This document shows positions 9,797 through 55,987 of a DNA stretch of 64,000 nt, piece by piece. Position 1 is the first letter of the stretch; the number at the start of each line of letters is the position of its first letter. Origin of the DNA: an uncultured Jannaschia sp. (lineage in GTDB: Bacteria; Pseudomonadota; Alphaproteobacteria; Rhodobacterales; Rhodobacteraceae); the NCBI RefSeq assembly GCF_947503795.1, contig NZ_CANNEZ010000001.1:549001-613000 (forward strand). Direction: 5' to 3'. Position numbers and translations under genes: made by a program. Below the pieces are notes generated by a model. It was not told the DNA's origin. It did not search any database and worked only from the letters and a program-made list of their open reading frames with translations.

Positions 9797-10816
9797 ATGA
9801 CCGAGCGCGATCCCCTGCTCGACCCCGCCCAGCGCGACGAGGGCGACCGGGCGCTGCGGCCGCAGGTGCTCGACGAATTCATCGGCCAGGCCGAGGCACG
9901 GTCGAACCTGCGGATCTTCATCGAAAGCGCAAAGCGGCGCGGCGAGGCGATGGACCACGTGCTGTTCCACGGGCCGCCGGGCCTGGGCAAGACGACGCTG
10001 GCGCAGATCATGGCGCGCGAGCTGGGCGTCGGATTTCGGATGACCTCGGGGCCGGTGCTGGCCAAGGCGGGCGACCTCGCCGCGATCCTGACCAATCTGG
10101 AGCCGCGCGACGTGCTCTTCATCGACGAGATCCACCGCCTGAACCCGGCGGTCGAGGAGGTGCTCTACCCCGCGCTCGAGGATTTCGCGCTGGACCTCGT
10201 GATCGGCGAGGGGCCGGCGGCGCGGACCGTGCGGATCGACCTTCAGCCCTTCACGCTGGTCGGCGCGACGACCCGGCTGGGCCTGCTGACCACGCCGCTG
10301 CGCGACCGCTTCGGCATCCCCACGCGGCTGGTCTTCTACACCGAGGACGAACTCCATGAGATCGTCACCCGCGGCGCCCGCCTGATGGGCGCGCCCGCCA
10401 CCGATGACGGCGCCCGCGAGATCGCCAAGCGCGCGCGCGGCACGCCCCGGATCGCGGGCCGGCTGCTGCGCCGCGTGGTCGACTTCGCGGTGGTCGAAGG
10501 CGACGGGCGGGTGACGCAGGACGTGGCCGACGGGGCGCTGACGCGGCTCGGGGTGGACCATCTCGGGCTCGACGGCGCGGACCGGCGCTACCTGTCGCTC
10601 ATCGCCGAGAATTACGGCGGCGGGCCGGTGGGGATCGAGACGATCGCCGCGGCCCTTTCGGAGAGCCGCGACGCGCTCGAGGAGGTGATCGAGCCGTTCC
10701 TTCTGCAACAGGGACTGATCGCGCGCACGCCGCGCGGACGGATGCTGGCCCACAAGGGCTGGAGCCATCTGGGCCTGCCCGCGCCCGGCGGGCCGAATGG
10801 CGATCTCTTCGGCTGA
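9797..10816 (+). CDS. ruvB: Holliday junction branch-migration ATPase RuvB
   Basis: 339 residues of the AAA+ family. Walker [10 protein letters not shown], Walker [10 protein letters not shown], sensor GATTRLGLL and arginine finger region PLRDRFGI are visible, with the C-terminal winged helix ending in [13 protein letters not shown]. Hexameric rings pump DNA through the RuvA tetramer. It follows ruvA by 52 bases, completing the ruvCAB operon. Confidence 0.98.
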
Positions 10817-10817
10817 G

Positions 10818-10872
10818 GGCGGGGCGAGGGGTTCCACCCCTCGCGCACCCCGGCATATTTGACGAACATCGA
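10818..10872. repeat. intergenic hairpin plus CCCCGGCATATTT element
   Basis: Directly after ruvB there is a hairpin (gaggggt/acccctc), then GCGCACCCCGGCATATTTGA. A related element (hairpin ggggctctgcccc followed by ACCCCGAGGTATTT) occurs at 58296-58330. My recollection is that this class of element recurs between genes in Rhodobacteraceae genomes. It may act as a 3' end or transcript-stabilising element. Confidence 0.5.
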
Positions 10873-10897
10873 AGGGATTGGCATCGGGGGCCGGGTG

Positions 10898-12307
10898 ATG
10901 GGCGAGGAAACGGATCGGGCGGTGTTCAACCTCGCCGCCTACGTCCTGGCGGCAGGACGGACGCGGGCGGATCGGCCCGCGCTGATCGTGCCGGGCGTGC
11001 AGCGATGGACCCACGGCGCGCTGGCCGATGCGGTCGAGCGGCGGGCGGGGGGTCTGGCGGCGCGGGGCCTGAAGTCGGGCGACCGGGTGCTGCTTCGGCT
11101 GGGAAATTCGGGCGACTTCCCGGTGACCTTCCTCGCCTGCGCGCTGGCGGGGCTGGTACCGGTGCCGACGGCGGCGGGCCTGACGGAACGGGAGATCACC
11201 AGGATGGCCGCGTTGGTCGATCCCGCGCTGGTGGTCGCCGAAGCGGGCATCTCGCGACCCGCCGGGGCCGGCGCGGTCGCGCCCGAGGCGCTGGACGCCG
11301 TCCCCCTGCCGCCCGCGGACTGGTCGCGCGGGTCCGCCGACCGCCTCGGCTATATCGTGTTCACCAGCGGATCGGGCGGCACGCCCAAGGCAGTGGCTCA
11401 CGCGCATCGCGCGGTGCTGGCGCGGCGGGCGATGTGGGACGGCTGGTATGGCCTGCGTGCCGATGACCGGATGATGCATGCGGGGGCCTTCAACTGGACC
11501 TACACGCTGGGCACCGGGCTGCTCGACCCCTGGGCGATCGGCGCGACGGCGATCGTGCCACCTCCCGGTGCGGCGGACCTCGCGGGGCTGATCCGCGCCG
11601 AGGCAGCGACGATTTTCGCGGCGGCGCCGGGGATCTACCGGCGGCTCCTGCGCGGTGACCTGTCGGGGCTGGGTGCGCTGCGGCACGGGCTCTCGGCGGG
11701 CGAGCGTCTGCCCGAGGCGACCCGGACGGCCTGGTACGCGGCGACGGGTACCGATCTGCACGAGGCGCTGGGGATGTCGGAATGCTCGACCTTCGTATCG
11801 GGCTGCCCCGACCGCCCGGCGCCGTCTGGGACATCGGGCTACGCGCAGCCGGGCCGACGGGTCCGCGTGGTCGATGGCCGCCTGCAGGTCGCGACCGACG
11901 ATCCGGGGCTGATGCTCGGCTACTGGGTGGATGGCGCGCCGGTGCCGGTGGAGGGCGACTGGTTCGACACCGGCGACCGGGTGACGACGCGCGCGGACGG
12001 CGCGATCCGGCACGAGGGCCGCGCGGACGACCTGCTCAACCCCGGCGGCTTCCGCGTCTCGCCGCAGGAGGTCGAGGCCGCGCTGGCCGATCTGCCAGTG
12101 CATGAGATCGCGGTCGGCTGCACGCGGGTGGCCGGCGGCGCGGAAGTGCTGGCGGCCTATTATGTCGGCCCGTTGCTGGACGAAGGCATGGCGGACGCAC
12201 ACGCGACGGCCCGGTTGGCGGCCTACAAGCGCCCGCGGCTTTGGCTCCGGCGGGAGGCGCTGCCGCGAAACGCGAACGGCAAGCTGCGGCGGCGCGACCT
12301 GGCCTGA
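10898..12307 (+). CDS. AMP-dependent acyl-CoA synthetase/ligase
   Basis: 469 residues of the ANL superfamily, which makes acyl-AMP and then acyl-CoA from a carboxylic acid, ATP and CoA. The P-loop-like motif is YIVFTSGSGGTPKAVAHAHR; the late motifs are GDWFDTGDRV and the catalytic lysine in NANGKLRRRD near the C-terminus. Short N-terminus and overall layout suggest the benzoate-CoA ligase or short-chain branch, but the substrate is not readable. Start ATG (MGEETDRAVF) was preferred over an upstream in-frame codon inside the intergenic repeat. It follows ruvB without obvious functional link. Confidence 0.85.
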   Translation: MGEETDRAVFNLAAYVLAAGRTRADRPALIVPGVQRWTHGALADAVERRAGGLAARGLKSGDRVLLRLGNSGDFPVTFLACALAGLVPVPTAAGLTEREITRMAALVDPALVVAEAGISRPAGAGAVAPEALDAVPLPPADWSRGSADRLGYIVFTSGSGGTPKAVAHAHRAVLARRAMWDGWYGLRADDRMMHAGAFNWTYTLGTGLLDPWAIGATAIVPPPGAADLAGLIRAEAATIFAAAPGIYRRLLRGDLSGLGALRHGLSAGERLPEATRTAWYAATGTDLHEALGMSECSTFVSGCPDRPAPSGTSGYAQPGRRVRVVDGRLQVATDDPGLMLGYWVDGAPVPVEGDWFDTGDRVTTRADGAIRHEGRADDLLNPGGFRVSPQEVEAALADLPVHEIAVGCTRVAGGAEVLAAYYVGPLLDEGMADAHATARLAAYKRPRLWLRREALPRNANGKLRRRDLA

Positions 12308-49837: not shown

Positions 49838-50208
49838 CTGTCTCGCCTGGGGAAAGGCGATTGAGACGATTACTTCGTCAGGTCGAGGCCGGTACCGGCG
49901 GCGCCGAAGCCCGCGCCGATCATGTCGGTCTTGAGCTGGGTCTCGATGTCGCCCGAGATGTCCTGGACGCCCTGCGAGACGACGCCCATGACGGCGAGGC
50001 CGAGGCCGACGAGGGCGGCGGTCAGGACGACCCAGTCGACGGTCACGGCGCCGGATTCGTCATTCTTGAAGGTGTTGATCGCGTTCAGCATTGGAGTGTT
50101 CCTTGAGGTTCGGTGGCTGGTCTTCACGGTTCGGATCGTCGGGCGGCATGCCCTTTCGATGCCACCGGTATCGCGGCGAATCCGGGCGGGAATGGGACGG
50201 GCGCGGGG
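49803..50208. repeat. tandem flp repeat unit 1
   Basis: A unit of about 407 bp holding terminator, flp gene, ribosome site and an upstream element (gatgccaccggtatcgcggc...gggcgcgggg). It is directly repeated at 50282-50689 with high identity, separated by about 73 bases of unique sequence. Confidence 0.88.
49870..50091 (-). CDS. flp: Flp-type pilin, copy 1
   Basis: 73 residues: a short leader MLNAINTFKNDESG and the mature helix AVTVDWVVLTAALVGLGLAV. Prepilin peptidase should cut after Gly14. Mature position 5 is Asp where Flp pilins normally have Glu. The tail ends FGAAGTGLDLTK. It differs from copy 2 only near residues 50-55 (ETQLK against KGQLE). A ribosome site GGAAC lies before the ATG. 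Confidence 0.92.
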   Translation of the reverse strand: MLNAINTFKNDESGAVTVDWVVLTAALVGLGLAVMGVVSQGVQDISGDIETQLKTDMIGAGFGAAGTGLDLTK

Positions 50209-50281
50209 TTTGTTTCGGATGATCGCATGGCAAGGCATGTATTTCGCGCAACAGATCAGCCCGATCCGGGGCATTGGCACG

Positions 50282-50351: not shown

Positions 50352-50573
50352 TTACTTCGTCAGGTCGAGGCCGGTACCGGCGGCGCCGAAGCCCGCACCG
50401 ATCATGTCGGTCTCGAGCTGGCCCTTGATGTCGCCCGAGATGTCCTGGACGCCCTGCGAGACGACGCCCATGACGGCGAGGCCGAGGCCGACGAGGGCGG
50501 CGGTCAGGACGACCCAGTCGACGGTCACGGCGCCGGATTCATCATTCTTGAAGGTGTTGATCGCGTTCAGCAT
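50352..50573 (-). CDS. flp: Flp-type pilin, copy 2
   Basis: 73 residues, nearly identical to copy 1. The cleavage site is ESG-AVTVDW, the same Asp at mature position 5, and the tail FGAAGTGLDLTK. The residues after 49 are KGQLETDMIG instead of ETQLKTDMIG. As the upstream copy, it may be the main pilin. Its promoter lies in the 638-base gap that also serves the transglycosylase gene. Confidence 0.92.
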   Translation of the reverse strand: MLNAINTFKNDESGAVTVDWVVLTAALVGLGLAVMGVVSQGVQDISGDIKGQLETDMIGAGFGAAGTGLDLTK

Positions 50574-51211
50574 TGGAGTGTTCCTTGAGCTTCGGTGGCA
50601 AGTCTTACGGTTCAGATCGTCGGGCGGCTTGCCCTTTCGATGCCACCGGTATCGCGGCGAATCCGGGCATGAATGGGACGGGCGCGGGGAAAAGACATGA
50701 AAGTTCTGCGTGGTTAATGCGCCGATTCCGCCCGTGACGGCCGTCTGTTGAACGAGTGAGGGCCGCGCCTGCCAGCACGGCCCTCTGTCCCTCGGTCCGT
50801 ACCGATGGAGATGTGACACGACCCTCTTGATCCCCTTCCGCCTGCCAACGAAAGGGCGGGGACTGCTCGATTGTCACGTCTTGCCCGAGTGTCTCGGTGC
50901 CTTTTGTTGATCGGGCTGCGGAAGCGGTCTGCCGTCGCCGCCACAACCCGATGAAGCCGGTATGGGAGGGAAATGGGGCGGAAACGTGTCTTATTCGGAT
51001 CGAATTGGGGACAATAGCGGCTTTACGGGGAATTGACCGTGCTCCGGCAACGATAGCGTGGCCGCAAAGCGTCTGGCCGGGGGTGCGATCCGACGAAAGA
51101 CGGCCCCGGCACGACGAATGTCACACAGGGGCCACGCCCGCCTGCCCGACCCATGACAGATGGGGCGCCCGCGTGGCAAGATACCTCAAAACAAGAACCG
51201 AGCAGTTCATC
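50574..51211. other. 638-bp divergent regulatory region between flp and a lytic transglycosylase
   Basis: No gene was recognised. The left 115 bases belong to the flp repeat unit. The rest (50690-51211) is less GC-rich in places and has no convincing promoter pair, though it must drive flp leftward and the transglycosylase rightward. A frame running through it from 50897 is only an in-frame extension of the transglycosylase gene. Confidence 0.55.
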
Positions 51212-52064: not shown

Positions 52065-52352
52065 TCACTCGATCACGTCGGCCCATTCGGGATGCTTGCG
52101 CGCCTGCGCCTTCACGAAAGGGCAGAGCGCGATCACGCCCTTCCCTTCGGCCCGCATGTCCGCGACCATCCGTTCGGCCAAGGCGAGCCCCGCACCCGAG
52201 CCGCGCAGGCCGTCGGGCACGCCGGTGTGGTCGACGATGATCTTGCTGTCACCCAGCCGCGAATAGGTCATCTCGGCCTCGTGGCCATCTGACGTCAGGA
52301 GCCAGCGGCCGCCGCTCTCGCCATCCTCGCGGGTAATCTCGAATGCGGCCAA
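52065..52352 (-). CDS. small GNAT (YjdJ-type) acetyltransferase
   Basis: 95 residues with the short GNAT fold: DGHEAEMTYSRLGDSKIIVD, VPDGLRGSGAGLALAERMVA (acetyl-CoA loop GLRGSGAG), and ALCPFVKAQARKHPEWADVI at the C-terminus. The start is probably TTG (52352), since no ATG is available before residue 28. It begins four bases after the scoB stop and ends the CoA-transferase operon. The substrate is unknown. Confidence 0.85.
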   Translation of the reverse strand: MAAFEITREDGESGGRWLLTSDGHEAEMTYSRLGDSKIIVDHTGVPDGLRGSGAGLALAERMVADMRAEGKGVIALCPFVKAQARKHPEWADVIE

Positions 52353-52356
52353 GGCG

Positions 52357-52986
52357 TCAGGCGACCAGCGTGGCTTCGGTCAGATCGCGCAGCTCGTCCT
52401 CGGTGACGCCGTCGGCCAGCTCCACCAGTTTCAATCCGCCCTCCACGACGTCGAGCACGCCGAGATTGGTGATGATCCGGTCCACGACCGCCTTGCCGGT
52501 CAGCGGAAGGGTGCAATCCTTAAGAAGCTTCGACTCGCCGTGTTTGTTGGCGTGATCCATCACGACGACCACGCGCCCGACGCCCGCCACGAGGTCCATG
52601 GCCCCGCCCATGCCCTTCACGAGCTTGCCGGGGATCATCCAGTTGGCGAGGTCGCCGTTCTCGGCCACTTCCATCGCGCCGAGGATCGCCATCGCGATCT
52701 TGCCGCCCCGGATCATGCCGAAGCTCTGCGCGCTGTCGAAATAGGCCGAGTGCGGCAGCTCGGTGATCGTCTGCTTGCCCGCGTTGATGAGGTCGGGATC
52801 TTCCTCGCCCTCGTAGGGGAAGGGGCCCATTCCGAGCATCCCGTTCTCGGATTGCAGCGTCACCTCGATCCCCTCGGGGATGTAGTTGGACACCAGCGTC
52901 GGAATCCCGATCCCGAGATTGACGTACCAGCCGTCCTGAAGTTCCTGCGCGGCGCGCGCGGCCATCTGGTTGCGGTCCCAGGGCAT
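52357..52986 (-). CDS. scoB: 3-oxoacid CoA-transferase subunit B
   Basis: 209 residues of CoA-transferase family I. It carries the catalytic Glu in [20 protein letters not shown], and conserved [17 protein letters not shown] and [20 protein letters not shown]. With subunit A it moves CoA between succinyl-CoA and acetoacetate. Its ribosome site AGGAGAG overlaps the TAG stop of the LOV kinase gene, so translation is probably coupled to that gene. Confidence 0.94.
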
Positions 52987-52995
52987 GGCTCTCTC

Positions 52996-54090
52996 CTAGA
53001 GTTCGACGATGTCGACGGGCACGTCGATCATCACCACGGTGCCGGCGGCGCCGCGGACGGGGGTCAGGGTCGCCTCCAGCCCGTCGAGCAGCGTCGCCAT
53101 CAGGCGGCCCCCGACGGTCTCGGGGTTCGGGAACGGCTCGTTGGCGGGCAGGCCGACGCCGTCATCGCCGATCGTCAGCCGCAGGCCACCCGCCGCAAGC
53201 TTGGTCATCCGCAGCTCGACCACGCCCTCGTCGACCCGCTCGAAGGCGTGGCGGAACGCGTTAGAGAGCACTTCGGACATCAGGAGCGAGATCCGGACCG
53301 CCGCGTCGAGATTGACGTCGATCGGGTCGATATCCTGGACGTAGCGGATGCCCGGACGCCCCTCGTGATGGGCGATGGCCGCGGCGGCACGGCTGAGGAG
53401 CGAGCCGAGGTCGATGCCTGGATGGATGTCCTGCTGGCGGTCGGCCAACTGCATGCTCTCGTAGGCCAGTTGGAGGCATTCGAGCCGGCGGTTCATGTCC
53501 TCGGCGGCGCGGGTGTCGTAGCCCGAGACCTCCTGGCCCAGTTGCTTGAGGACCATGGCGAGATCGCCCTGCACCCGCTCGTGCAGCATCCGCAGTAGGC
53601 CGTGGGCTTGCTCCTCCTCGGCCTCGGAGGCGTAGATTTCCTTCTGGATGCCAAGAAAGAAGATCGGCTTTCCGTTGCTGTCGCTGATCGGCGCGATGAT
53701 CAGCCGGTTCATGAAGGGCGAGCCGTCGGCGCGGTAGTTCAGCAGATCGACCGTGACGTCGCGCCCGTCCGCGACCGCGTGCCGGATGCGGTCGACGGCG
53801 TCCTTGTCGGTGTCCTCGCCCTGCAGGAACCGGCAGTTGCGTCCGATGGCCGCCGAGCGCGAATAGCCCGTCGTCCGCTCGAAGGCCGAGTTGACGTAGA
53901 CGATCGGGTGATCCTCGGCGCGGGCATCGGCCAGCACGACGGCGACACGGACGCGGCTGAAGCCTTCGAGCGCGGCGCTGTCCTCCATCACGGCGGCCAA
54001 TTTGCGACTGCCGGAGGCGCCGGATGCGCGTGCGCGATTGGCCTCGGGTTGGGCCGTGCCGTGTGCAGGAAACTCGCGATCAGGTGCCAT
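52996..54090 (-). CDS. LOV-domain histidine kinase inside the CoA-transferase operon
   Basis: 364 residues, soluble. The LOV domain (about 33-150) keeps the photoactive Cys86 in AIGRNCRFLQGEDTDKDAVD and the flavin contacts NYRADGSPFMNRLIIAPI and FFLGIQKE, so blue-light sensing by FMN is expected. The kinase part has LRMLHERVQGDLAMVLKQLG (phospho-accepting His170), the N-box MSEVLSNAFRHAF (Asn277) and the G-box IGDDGVGLP. The start follows GAGGAGG and overlaps scoA by 11 bases. No response regulator is in the window. Confidence 0.92.
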   Translation of the reverse strand: MAPDREFPAHGTAQPEANRARASGASGSRKLAAVMEDSAALEGFSRVRVAVVLADARAEDHPIVYVNSAFERTTGYSRSAAIGRNCRFLQGEDTDKDAVDRIRHAVADGRDVTVDLLNYRADGSPFMNRLIIAPISDSNGKPIFFLGIQKEIYASEAEEEQAHGLLRMLHERVQGDLAMVLKQLGQEVSGYDTRAAEDMNRRLECLQLAYESMQLADRQQDIHPGIDLGSLLSRAAAAIAHHEGRPGIRYVQDIDPIDVNLDAAVRISLLMSEVLSNAFRHAFERVDEGVVELRMTKLAAGGLRLTIGDDGVGLPANEPFPNPETVGGRLMATLLDGLEATLTPVRGAAGTVVMIDVPVDIVEL

Positions 54091-54793
54091 CAGCCCCTCC
54101 TCTCGGTCGTGTCGTGCGTTGTTCGATGCGTTTCTCGTGCGTGCCCTGGACGATGCGATGCACGTAGATGCCGGGCAGGTGGATGTGATCGGGATCGAGC
54201 GCGCCGGCCTCGACGATCTCCTCGACCTCGACGACACAGACCTTGCCGCACATCGCAGCCGGCGGATTGAAGTTGCGGGCGGTCTTGCGGAACACGAGGT
54301 TGCCCGTGGTGTCGGCCTTCCACGCCTTCACGATCGACAGGTCCGCCACGATCCCCCGCTCGAGGATGTAGGTCTCGCCGTCGAACTCCTTGTGCTCCTT
54401 GCCCTCGGCGATGACCGTGCCGACGCCGGTCTTGGTGTAGAAGCCGGGGATGCCGCAGCCGCCCGCGCGCATCCGTTCGGCCAGCGTGCCCTGCGGGTTG
54501 AACTCCAGCTCCAGCTCGCCCCCGAGATACTGGCGCATGAACTCCTTGTTCTCGCCCACGTAGCTCGAGATCATCTTCTTGACCTGCCGGGTCTGCAGCA
54601 GGATGCCGATGCCGAAATCGTCCACGCCCGCATTGTTGGATGCGAAGGTCATGTCCTTGGTGCCCGCATCCTTGATCGCCTGCAGCAGGAGTTCGGGGAT
54701 GCCCGACAGGCCGAACCCGCCCGCGGCGATCAGCATGCCGTCGAACAACACGCCGTCCAGCGCCTCCGCGGCGGACCCGTAGACCTTCTTCAT
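54080..54793 (-). CDS. scoA: 3-oxoacid CoA-transferase subunit A
   Basis: 237 residues from MKKVYGSAAEALDGVLFDGM. Family I motifs are MLIAAGGFGLSGIPELLLQA, FASNNAGVDDFGIGILLQTR, GGCGIPGFYTKTGVGTVIAE and LVFRKTARNFNPPAAMCGKV. It forms the heterodimer with subunit B, whose gene is separated from it by the LOV kinase. A frame of 18 residues upstream was rejected for lack of a conserved start. It overlaps the kinase by 11 bases. Confidence 0.94.
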   Translation of the reverse strand: MKKVYGSAAEALDGVLFDGMLIAAGGFGLSGIPELLLQAIKDAGTKDMTFASNNAGVDDFGIGILLQTRQVKKMISSYVGENKEFMRQYLGGELELEFNPQGTLAERMRAGGCGIPGFYTKTGVGTVIAEGKEHKEFDGETYILERGIVADLSIVKAWKADTTGNLVFRKTARNFNPPAAMCGKVCVVEVEEIVEAGALDPDHIHLPGIYVHRIVQGTHEKRIEQRTTRPRGGADGT

Positions 54794-54883: not shown

Positions 54884-55987
54884 TCATTGGTGGCGCGCCG
54901 CTCGCGCCTCGACCATTTCGGCGATCCGACCGGCGGCGAAGGCGTCGAATGAAGAGTCGGGCTGACGCCGCGCGAAGGTCTCGGCGAAGGGGTCGGGGGC
55001 GACAGTCGCGCTTCCGGCCATCGTGGACAGGACGGCGTGGCCACAAAACGGCACGTAGACCTCGGAGTAGCCGCCCTCGTGGGCCATCACGAGCCGTCCG
55101 TCGCAAATGTCGCCTGCGAGTTCCATGACCTGCGCGGTCATCGCGGCGAAGGTCTCGGCGGTGGCCATCATCCGGCCCAGCGGGTCGAGCACGCAGGCAT
55201 CCAGCCCACAGGCCACGATGACGACGTCCGGCGCGTGGGCCCGGATCGCGGGCAGGACGAGCCGCTCCATTGCCTGGAGATAGGTGGCGTGGCCCGCGCC
55301 GGGCGGCAGGGGCACGTTGAGATTGGAGACGGCATCGGTGTCGAACTGCCCGGTGTCGAGCGGGTAGTTGTTCTCCTGGTGGATCGAGACGGTCAGGATA
55401 TCGGCGTCATTGGCGAAGATCGCCTCGGTGCCGTTGCCGTGATGCACGTCCCAGTCGAGCACCGCGACCCGGAGGCCGGGGCGGGTGGCACGGGCCCGTT
55501 CGATCGCCAGCGCAATATTGGCCAGCAGACAGAACCCGTTCGGCCGGTCCGGCAGGCAGTGATGCCCCGGCGGACGGCTGAGCGCGTAGGCGTTGGCAAG
55601 CTCGCCCGCGAGCACCGCGTCGAGCGCATCGCCCACCAGCCCCGCCGAAAGCCGCGCGATGTCGTAGCCGCCGGGACCGAATGGCGCGCGCATCCCGAGC
55701 TCGCCCCCGCCGGCCTTCGACGCCTCCTCGAAGGCATCGAGATACGCGGCCGGATGGACGCGCAGGAGGTCGGAGCGATCCATCGGAGGCGCGGTGCGCT
55801 CGGACATCTCGGCCATCAGCCCGGTGACACGCAGCAGATTGACGAGCCGACGCTTCGTTTCGGGGTCCTCGGGCAGGCCGCCGCCGCCGGCGATCGGCTG
55901 GACCAGCCCGCCCACCGGCGCCATCTGCGCGTAGTTGCCGCCGCCATGCCAGAGGCACCGCTCGTCGTGGAAGAATCCGGTCGTCAT
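54884..55987 (-). CDS. class II HDAC-like amidohydrolase
   Basis: 367 residues. The arginase-deacetylase fold shows [20 protein letters not shown], the zinc site [16 protein letters not shown] with [13 protein letters not shown], and [20 protein letters not shown]. It is closest to bacterial histone-deacetylase-like amidohydrolases and could remove acyl groups from polyamines or proteins. It starts [10 protein letters not shown]. It lies downstream of glyA and upstream of scoA on the same strand. Substrate unknown. Confidence 0.9.

Follow-up and report, generated by a model that had tools for sequence, protein, structure and literature searches.

The window (the whole 64,000-nucleotide stretch of DNA analysed here) carries on its minus strand the genes for both subunits of a 3-oxoacid CoA-transferase, with a third gene between them. 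These are scoA (subunit A, 237 aa; 54080..54793), the gene of a 364-aa LOV protein that is a probable orthologue of LdaP (52996..54090), and scoB (subunit B, 209 aa; 52357..52986). ScoA and ScoB both score above the curated NCBIfam cut-offs, at 237.5 bits against 128.5 for TIGR02429 and 333.2 bits against 243.55 for TIGR02428, and in 12 other genomes of the genus the scoA that precedes the LOV gene is 81-91% identical to that of the window. An earlier note on this DNA described the locus as a LOV histidine kinase gene lodged between scoA and scoB, and the coordinates bear out the gene order and its fine structure. The LOV gene starts with the ATG at 54090 and the scoA stop ends at 54080, an overlap of 11 nt (54080..54090, minus strand), with an AGGAGG ribosome site just upstream, within scoA. 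At the other end, the LOV stop codon TAG (52998-52996) overlaps the AGGAG ribosome site of scoB (52990..52998, minus strand), the ATG of which is at 52986. These exact overlaps are not conserved elsewhere; from the sequence, scoB may plausibly be coupled in translation to the LOV gene in the window strain.

Directly after scoB lies a gene for a small GCN5-related N-acetyltransferase (Acetyltransf_CG; 52065..52352, minus strand), a relative of which follows scoB in 5 of 18 other stretches compared. Directly upstream of scoA, and in the same direction, is a histone-deacetylase-fold protein (PF00850, 250 bits; 54884-55987, minus strand), with a relative upstream in two of five other genus stretches compared. 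In the subset of neighbouring ORFs that was scanned, no response regulator was recognised; the genes there have housekeeping or metabolic roles and encode TldD, DprA, topoisomerase I, the small acetyltransferase, a transglycosylase, the histone-deacetylase-fold protein and a few more. Further along the same strand, the neighbouring ORFs at 49870-50280 and 50352-50819 encode nearly identical small proteins (MLNAINTFKNDESGAVTVDW...), which we take to be Flp-pilin-like, the adjoining genes presumably resembling those of Flp/Tad pilus assembly.

The missing phosphoacceptor

The LOV protein comprises a LOV domain (residues ~46-154), DHp-like helices without a phosphoacceptor His (~158-225) and a GHKL ATP-binding domain (~226-360). 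Its predicted model (mean pLDDT 85.7) finds as best match 4r3a (Foldseek E 1.9e-31, 41% identity), that is, EL346 of Erythrobacter litoralis, the closest solved structure. EL346 and RT-HK of Rubellimicrobium thermophilum have the same domain order as the window protein (PMC12148442), and the fold, the N-box Glu and the ATP-site residues of EL346 are kept in it. Both of these kinases carry a phosphoacceptor His and autophosphorylate (PMC12148442), whereas the window protein, judged by its residues, would be unable to do so at that site. In an alignment anchored on RV(K/Q), Glu171 (LHERVQGDLA) stands where EL346 has its phosphoacceptor; the codons of residues 170-172 (His-Glu-Arg) lie at 53575..53583 on the minus strand.

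Relatives were collected from two samples, one of 20 genomes of the genus, the window's own included, and one of 394 genomes from 393 genera of the family. In the family sample up to five candidates per genome were scored and matches at 1e-55 or better were taken, so that members that match more weakly or evolve faster could have escaped. At least 39 of the 394 family genomes have a match at this level, in at least 43 places, and all 43 were compared. Together with the genus proteins this gave 61 proteins, of which 31 bear the phosphoacceptor His and 30 do not, the latter divided between the genus (13) and other genera (17). Distant genus matches (L024-L028, L035-L038), L002 and weaker matches without a locus were excluded from this count; a distant locus from a scan of genome contigs (L039) also lies outside the counts, and for L054, L057, L060, L062 and L065, longer sequences covering those places (L106-L110) were used instead.

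His occupies position 171 in 31/31 of the His-bearing relatives and in 0/30 of the others. The 30 proteins without the His group in a single clade (bootstrap/SH-aLRT 94/98), which persists when the H-box columns are left out of the alignment (96/93). The His state changes once on the tree; the 30 are descended from a single loss and are therefore not independent observations. At the acceptor position, the 13 sco-embedded genus proteins show Glu, Gly, Ala, Ser or Thr, and none has His. The HRVKNH motif is replaced, and clade markers are found in Phe44 (30/30) and Asp176 (28/30). Residue 286 is Arg in 28 of the 31 His-bearing relatives and Leu, Met or Ile in 27 of the 30 His-less proteins.

The remaining functional residues have fared differently. 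The window protein retains the LOV motifs NCRFLQ, with the adduct-forming photocycle Cys86 (codon at 53833..53835, minus strand), NYRADG and FFLGIQ, just as the earlier note had claimed, and Cys86, Asn118, Asn128 and Gln149 are kept in 30/30 proteins of the clade. So, too, are Asp309, Asp310, Gly311, Gly313 and the N-box Glu273, with Asn277 of the N box and Gly327 of the G2 box each present in 29/30; the window protein has them all. The claim that the H, N and G boxes of a kinase are all kept thus stands for the N box (Asn277) and the G boxes (Asp309-Asp310-Gly311, Gly327) and fails for the H box, where the acceptor position is Glu171. Judged by its residues, the LOV protein has the fold of a kinase and lacks the acceptor.

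Could it nevertheless be an active LOV histidine kinase, with His170 or another residue as acceptor, signalling to an unlinked PhyR-like response regulator and with scoB expression tied to it? The intact ATP-site residues and the EL346 fold speak for such a kinase. His170, however, is one residue off the acceptor position and occurs in only 1 of the 30 proteins, and no alternative His between residues 155 and 232 is present in more than 3 of the 30. The replacement of HRVKNH by a sequence with Asp176, the neighbouring genes scanned, with no response regulator recognised in that subset, and the behaviour of the characterised member of the clade described below all point the same way. We regard this possibility as highly improbable. 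Because the phosphoacceptor is missing throughout the clade, a function as histidine kinase, which had been assumed for the window protein, appears very unlikely from its sequence, and a response regulator is therefore probably the wrong partner to seek.

Probable orthology to LdaP and place in the sco operon

LdaP (Dshi_1135) of Dinoroseobacter shibae is a LOV protein of 338 aa in which Arg148 replaces the His (PMC10890935). It binds FMN, its photocycle requires Cys61, and autophosphorylation was not detectable; it contacts PpsR and acts as an antirepressor at a photosynthesis promoter in the dark only (PMC10890935). All four primer cores from that paper match one locus of our family sample (L053, genome G054), the frame of which has 338 aa with Cys61 and Arg148, in agreement with the published LdaP. 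This protein belongs to the His-less clade, and its gene lies between scoA and scoB. LdaP and the window protein thus share a clade, the combination of LOV, His-less DHp-like and ATP-binding domains, the place between scoA and scoB, and a genome with PpsR and photosynthesis genes. They differ at the acceptor position (Arg in LdaP, Glu in the window protein), are ~49% identical, and the window protein has a longer N terminus, with the 11-nt overlap with scoA. The literature searched (main texts, with supplementary files outside the search) yielded no report of the scoA-ldaP-scoB order, and the main text of PMC10890935 contains none of the terms oxoacid, succinyl, scoA or transferase. A subgroup of EL346-like LOV histidine kinases without the His is mentioned in one sentence of PMC10359499; it has the same phosphoacceptor loss, and its operon and function are not given in the section that mentions it.

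We consider it probable, with good confidence, that the window gene is the orthologue of LdaP, a light-dependent PpsR antirepressor, and does not encode a functional histidine kinase. What the present comparison establishes is the common clade, the loss of the His and the association with photosynthesis genes; the dark antirepressor mechanism is carried over by analogy from D. shibae. On that model, the window protein would bind PpsR in the dark and free the promoters of photosynthesis genes, and blue light would form a Cys86-FMN adduct, upon which PpsR would be released. Its partner would be the PpsR encoded on another contig of the same genome (C3), close to pufM and the gene of a bacteriochlorophyll synthase, and by sharing an operon with scoAB the protein would be co-expressed with the CoA-transferase. 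If so, genes that are easily annotated as blue-light histidine kinases can be non-kinase regulators of photosynthesis. LdaP, which we found in the literature for one species, gains a clade of 30 proteins from 18 genera, marked by a sequence signature and, in 29/30, by a fixed genomic address.

Of the 20 genus genomes, 13 have a close orthologue of the LOV gene, counting the window's own (61-68% identity for the remaining 12), and in 13/13 of these the order is scoA-LOV-scoB. In all seven genomes that lack the gene, scoA and scoB are adjacent with nothing LOV-like between them, in keeping with the earlier remark that the two genes normally adjoin. Beyond the genus, the LOV gene is sandwiched between scoA and scoB in 25 other genera, as a His-less form in 16 and a His-bearing form in 9. 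An arrangement unique to one strain, which the earlier note had named as one outcome that would undo its reading, is therefore rejected by the 13 genus carriers and the 25 other genera. Both sco genes flank 29/30 of the His-less proteins and 9/31 of the His-bearing ones; an additional His-bearing protein, at a contig end (G178), has the scoA flank only. In the case of the one His-less exception (L148 in genome G206, 10123-11163), the LOV gene lies beside topA and dprA, and scoA and scoB are absent within the 19-kb stretch. Here the enzyme genes seem to have departed while the photoreceptor remained. In one genus genome (G018), the stretch also contains a further scoA that has no scoB.

The sco state needs six changes on the tree, and the His-bearing sco-embedded proteins fall on several branches outside the His-less clade. 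This suggests that the gene entered the sco operon before the His was lost, although the root of the tree is not fixed. The ancestor would have been an EL346-like LOV histidine kinase, probably already situated between scoA and scoB, and on one branch the phosphoacceptor was lost once, with the LOV photoswitch and the ATP-binding domain retained. A sensor kinase has apparently turned into a direct antirepressor, and its His-bearing relatives in the same operon provide natural controls.

The distance from the LOV stop to the scoB start ranges from -1 to 433 nt among the 29 His-less sco-flanked loci and is no greater than 30 nt in 21 of them; because of these short gaps, scoA, the LOV gene and scoB are likely to form one transcript. 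Such gaps, together with the frequency of the sandwich in His-less and His-bearing forms alike (six of the nine His-bearing cases being in genomes without pufM), would also fit a light-responsive regulator of the CoA-transferase itself, acting on enzyme assembly or on scoAB transcription. We think this improbable, given that scoA and scoB do without the gene in 7/7 genus non-carriers, that in G206 the gene persists beside topA with no scoA or scoB in its stretch, and that the His-less form tracks pufM. Control of scoAB by PpsR was considered and rejected. A search of the 300 nt before scoA at 44 loci for PpsR-type sites (TGT-N12-ACA) gave four, where shuffled sequences predict 1.3. They are spread over three loci, two of which carry the LOV gene (L042, L046) and one of which does not (L072); the window has none. 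As sites are not systematic before scoA, gene order is the sole basis of the suggested link between light and ketone-body metabolism.

As regards the place of the gene only, its embedding may be a frozen accident, an ancestral insertion into the operon without functional meaning, to which we give somewhat less than an even chance. The order tldD, dprA, topA and then scoA is often kept as well in other genera, and the region therefore changes slowly there; the widely varying gaps and the unsystematic PpsR sites are equally in line with an accident. The gene nevertheless sits inside the operon of a two-subunit enzyme in genomes of 26 genera, and within the genus the upstream neighbours differ, yet the sandwich is kept in 13/13. 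Nor does an accident sit well with the absence of the gene from 6/6 genus genomes that lack PpsR and pufM.

Co-occurrence with PpsR and photosynthesis genes

If the clade acts through PpsR, its members are expected in genomes that have PpsR and photosynthesis genes. The window's genome is such a case, encoding on contig C3 a PpsR (349 bits, cut-off 275.4) near a bacteriochlorophyll synthase gene, pufM (523 bits, cut-off 364.25) and pufC. Within the genus, PpsR and pufM each exceed their cut-offs in 14/20 genomes, and these are the identical 14. All 13 LOV carriers have both, and six of the seven non-carriers have neither over the cut-off (Fisher p 1.8e-4, uncorrected for kinship). On an rpoB tree of the genus, the LOV gene and the PpsR/pufM traits each change five times, and the three well-supported independent contrasts, which are too few for significance, give on average 2.7 as predicted, 0.3 with no difference and 0 in the opposite direction.

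In the family sample, pufM occurs in 166/394 genomes and PpsR in 166 at threshold, 164 of them over the cut-off. The 19 family genomes with a His-less protein all have pufM (p 4e-8, uncorrected), and 18 of the 19 have PpsR. Counted over both samples, 30/30 His-less proteins are in genomes with pufM and 29/30 in genomes with PpsR, the PpsR exception being a 77% complete genome (G283) with no match at threshold. Among the sco-embedded genes, pufM accompanies the His-less form in 17/17 genera and the His-bearing form in 3/9 (p 3.6e-4, uncorrected). Counting against the LdaP reading are the identity to LdaP of only ~49% and G014 (scoA at L073), the only genus genome with PpsR and pufM and no LOV gene at the sco locus.

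Other photoreceptors and PpsR-like proteins were seen in the same genomes. BLUF proteins occur in 132/394 family genomes and in 11/20 genus genomes; in the genus their frames are never longer than 236 aa, and none was found in the window's genome. A BLUF protein of the AppA type was considered as a possible substitute for the missing gene in G014, which is among the 11, with a short BLUF protein of 186 aa, and also has a His-bearing LOV kinase elsewhere (L023). Four genus genomes (G002, G003, G005 and G009) encode a second PpsR-like protein that scores below the PpsR cut-off, at 208-249 bits.

Conservation of the ATP-binding domain

The LdaP reading raises the question of why a non-kinase should keep an ATP-binding domain. 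The dN/dS of this (CA) domain is 0.02-0.17 in eight pairs. In the seven pairs for which they can be computed, the corresponding values are 0.07-0.27 (LOV domain) and 0.11-0.51 (helices). The CA value is below that of LOV in five of the seven and slightly above in two, with dS near saturation in several. By these values, the ATP-binding domain is under purifying selection. Were the LOV and helical parts all that mattered, it should have decayed; its conservation counts against the LdaP reading to the extent that an antirepressor needing no phosphorylation does not account for it.

NifL offers a possible precedent. It, too, combines flavin-PAS and GHKL domains and exerts its effect by contact with a transcription regulator, and it binds ATP and ADP without hydrolysis, ADP stabilising its complex (PMC9866876). 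It differs in having two PAS domains, in responding to redox and not to light, and in inhibiting an activator (PMC9866876), and is not an orthologue. By analogy, our hypothesis is that the ATP-binding domain of LdaP is kept for a nucleotide-dependent shape or for contact with PpsR. As an addition to the LdaP reading, the protein might then read both light and energy state, its direct contact with its partner being tuned by ATP/ADP, and the place at the CoA-transferase might reflect control of carbon and energy metabolism. We offer this tentatively. The low dN/dS of the domain and the presence of Asn277 in 29/30 are what it would predict, and the structural matches of the window protein include the NifL-NifA complex (9qq6, rank 37), although this match is weak (TM 0.28) and may reflect the PAS and GHKL folds alone. 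Against it stand the two pairs in which the CA value exceeds that of LOV, the near-saturated dS and a His-less protein that lacks both the N-box Asn and the G2 Gly (L064 in G249). Nucleotide effects on LdaP and PpsR also go without mention in the parts of PMC10890935 consulted.

Taken jointly, LdaP may be a two-input regulator in which blue light, through LOV, and adenylate, through a non-kinase GHKL domain, would together set the release of PpsR. Its place in the CoA-transferase operon would couple the control of photosynthesis to carbon status, and its origin would lie in one phosphoacceptor loss in a LOV kinase already belonging to the operon. This combination as a whole we rate as rather unlikely. 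The G249 protein (L064, 1516-2577), which is sco-embedded and keeps the LOV motif, forms the longest branch in the His-less clade.
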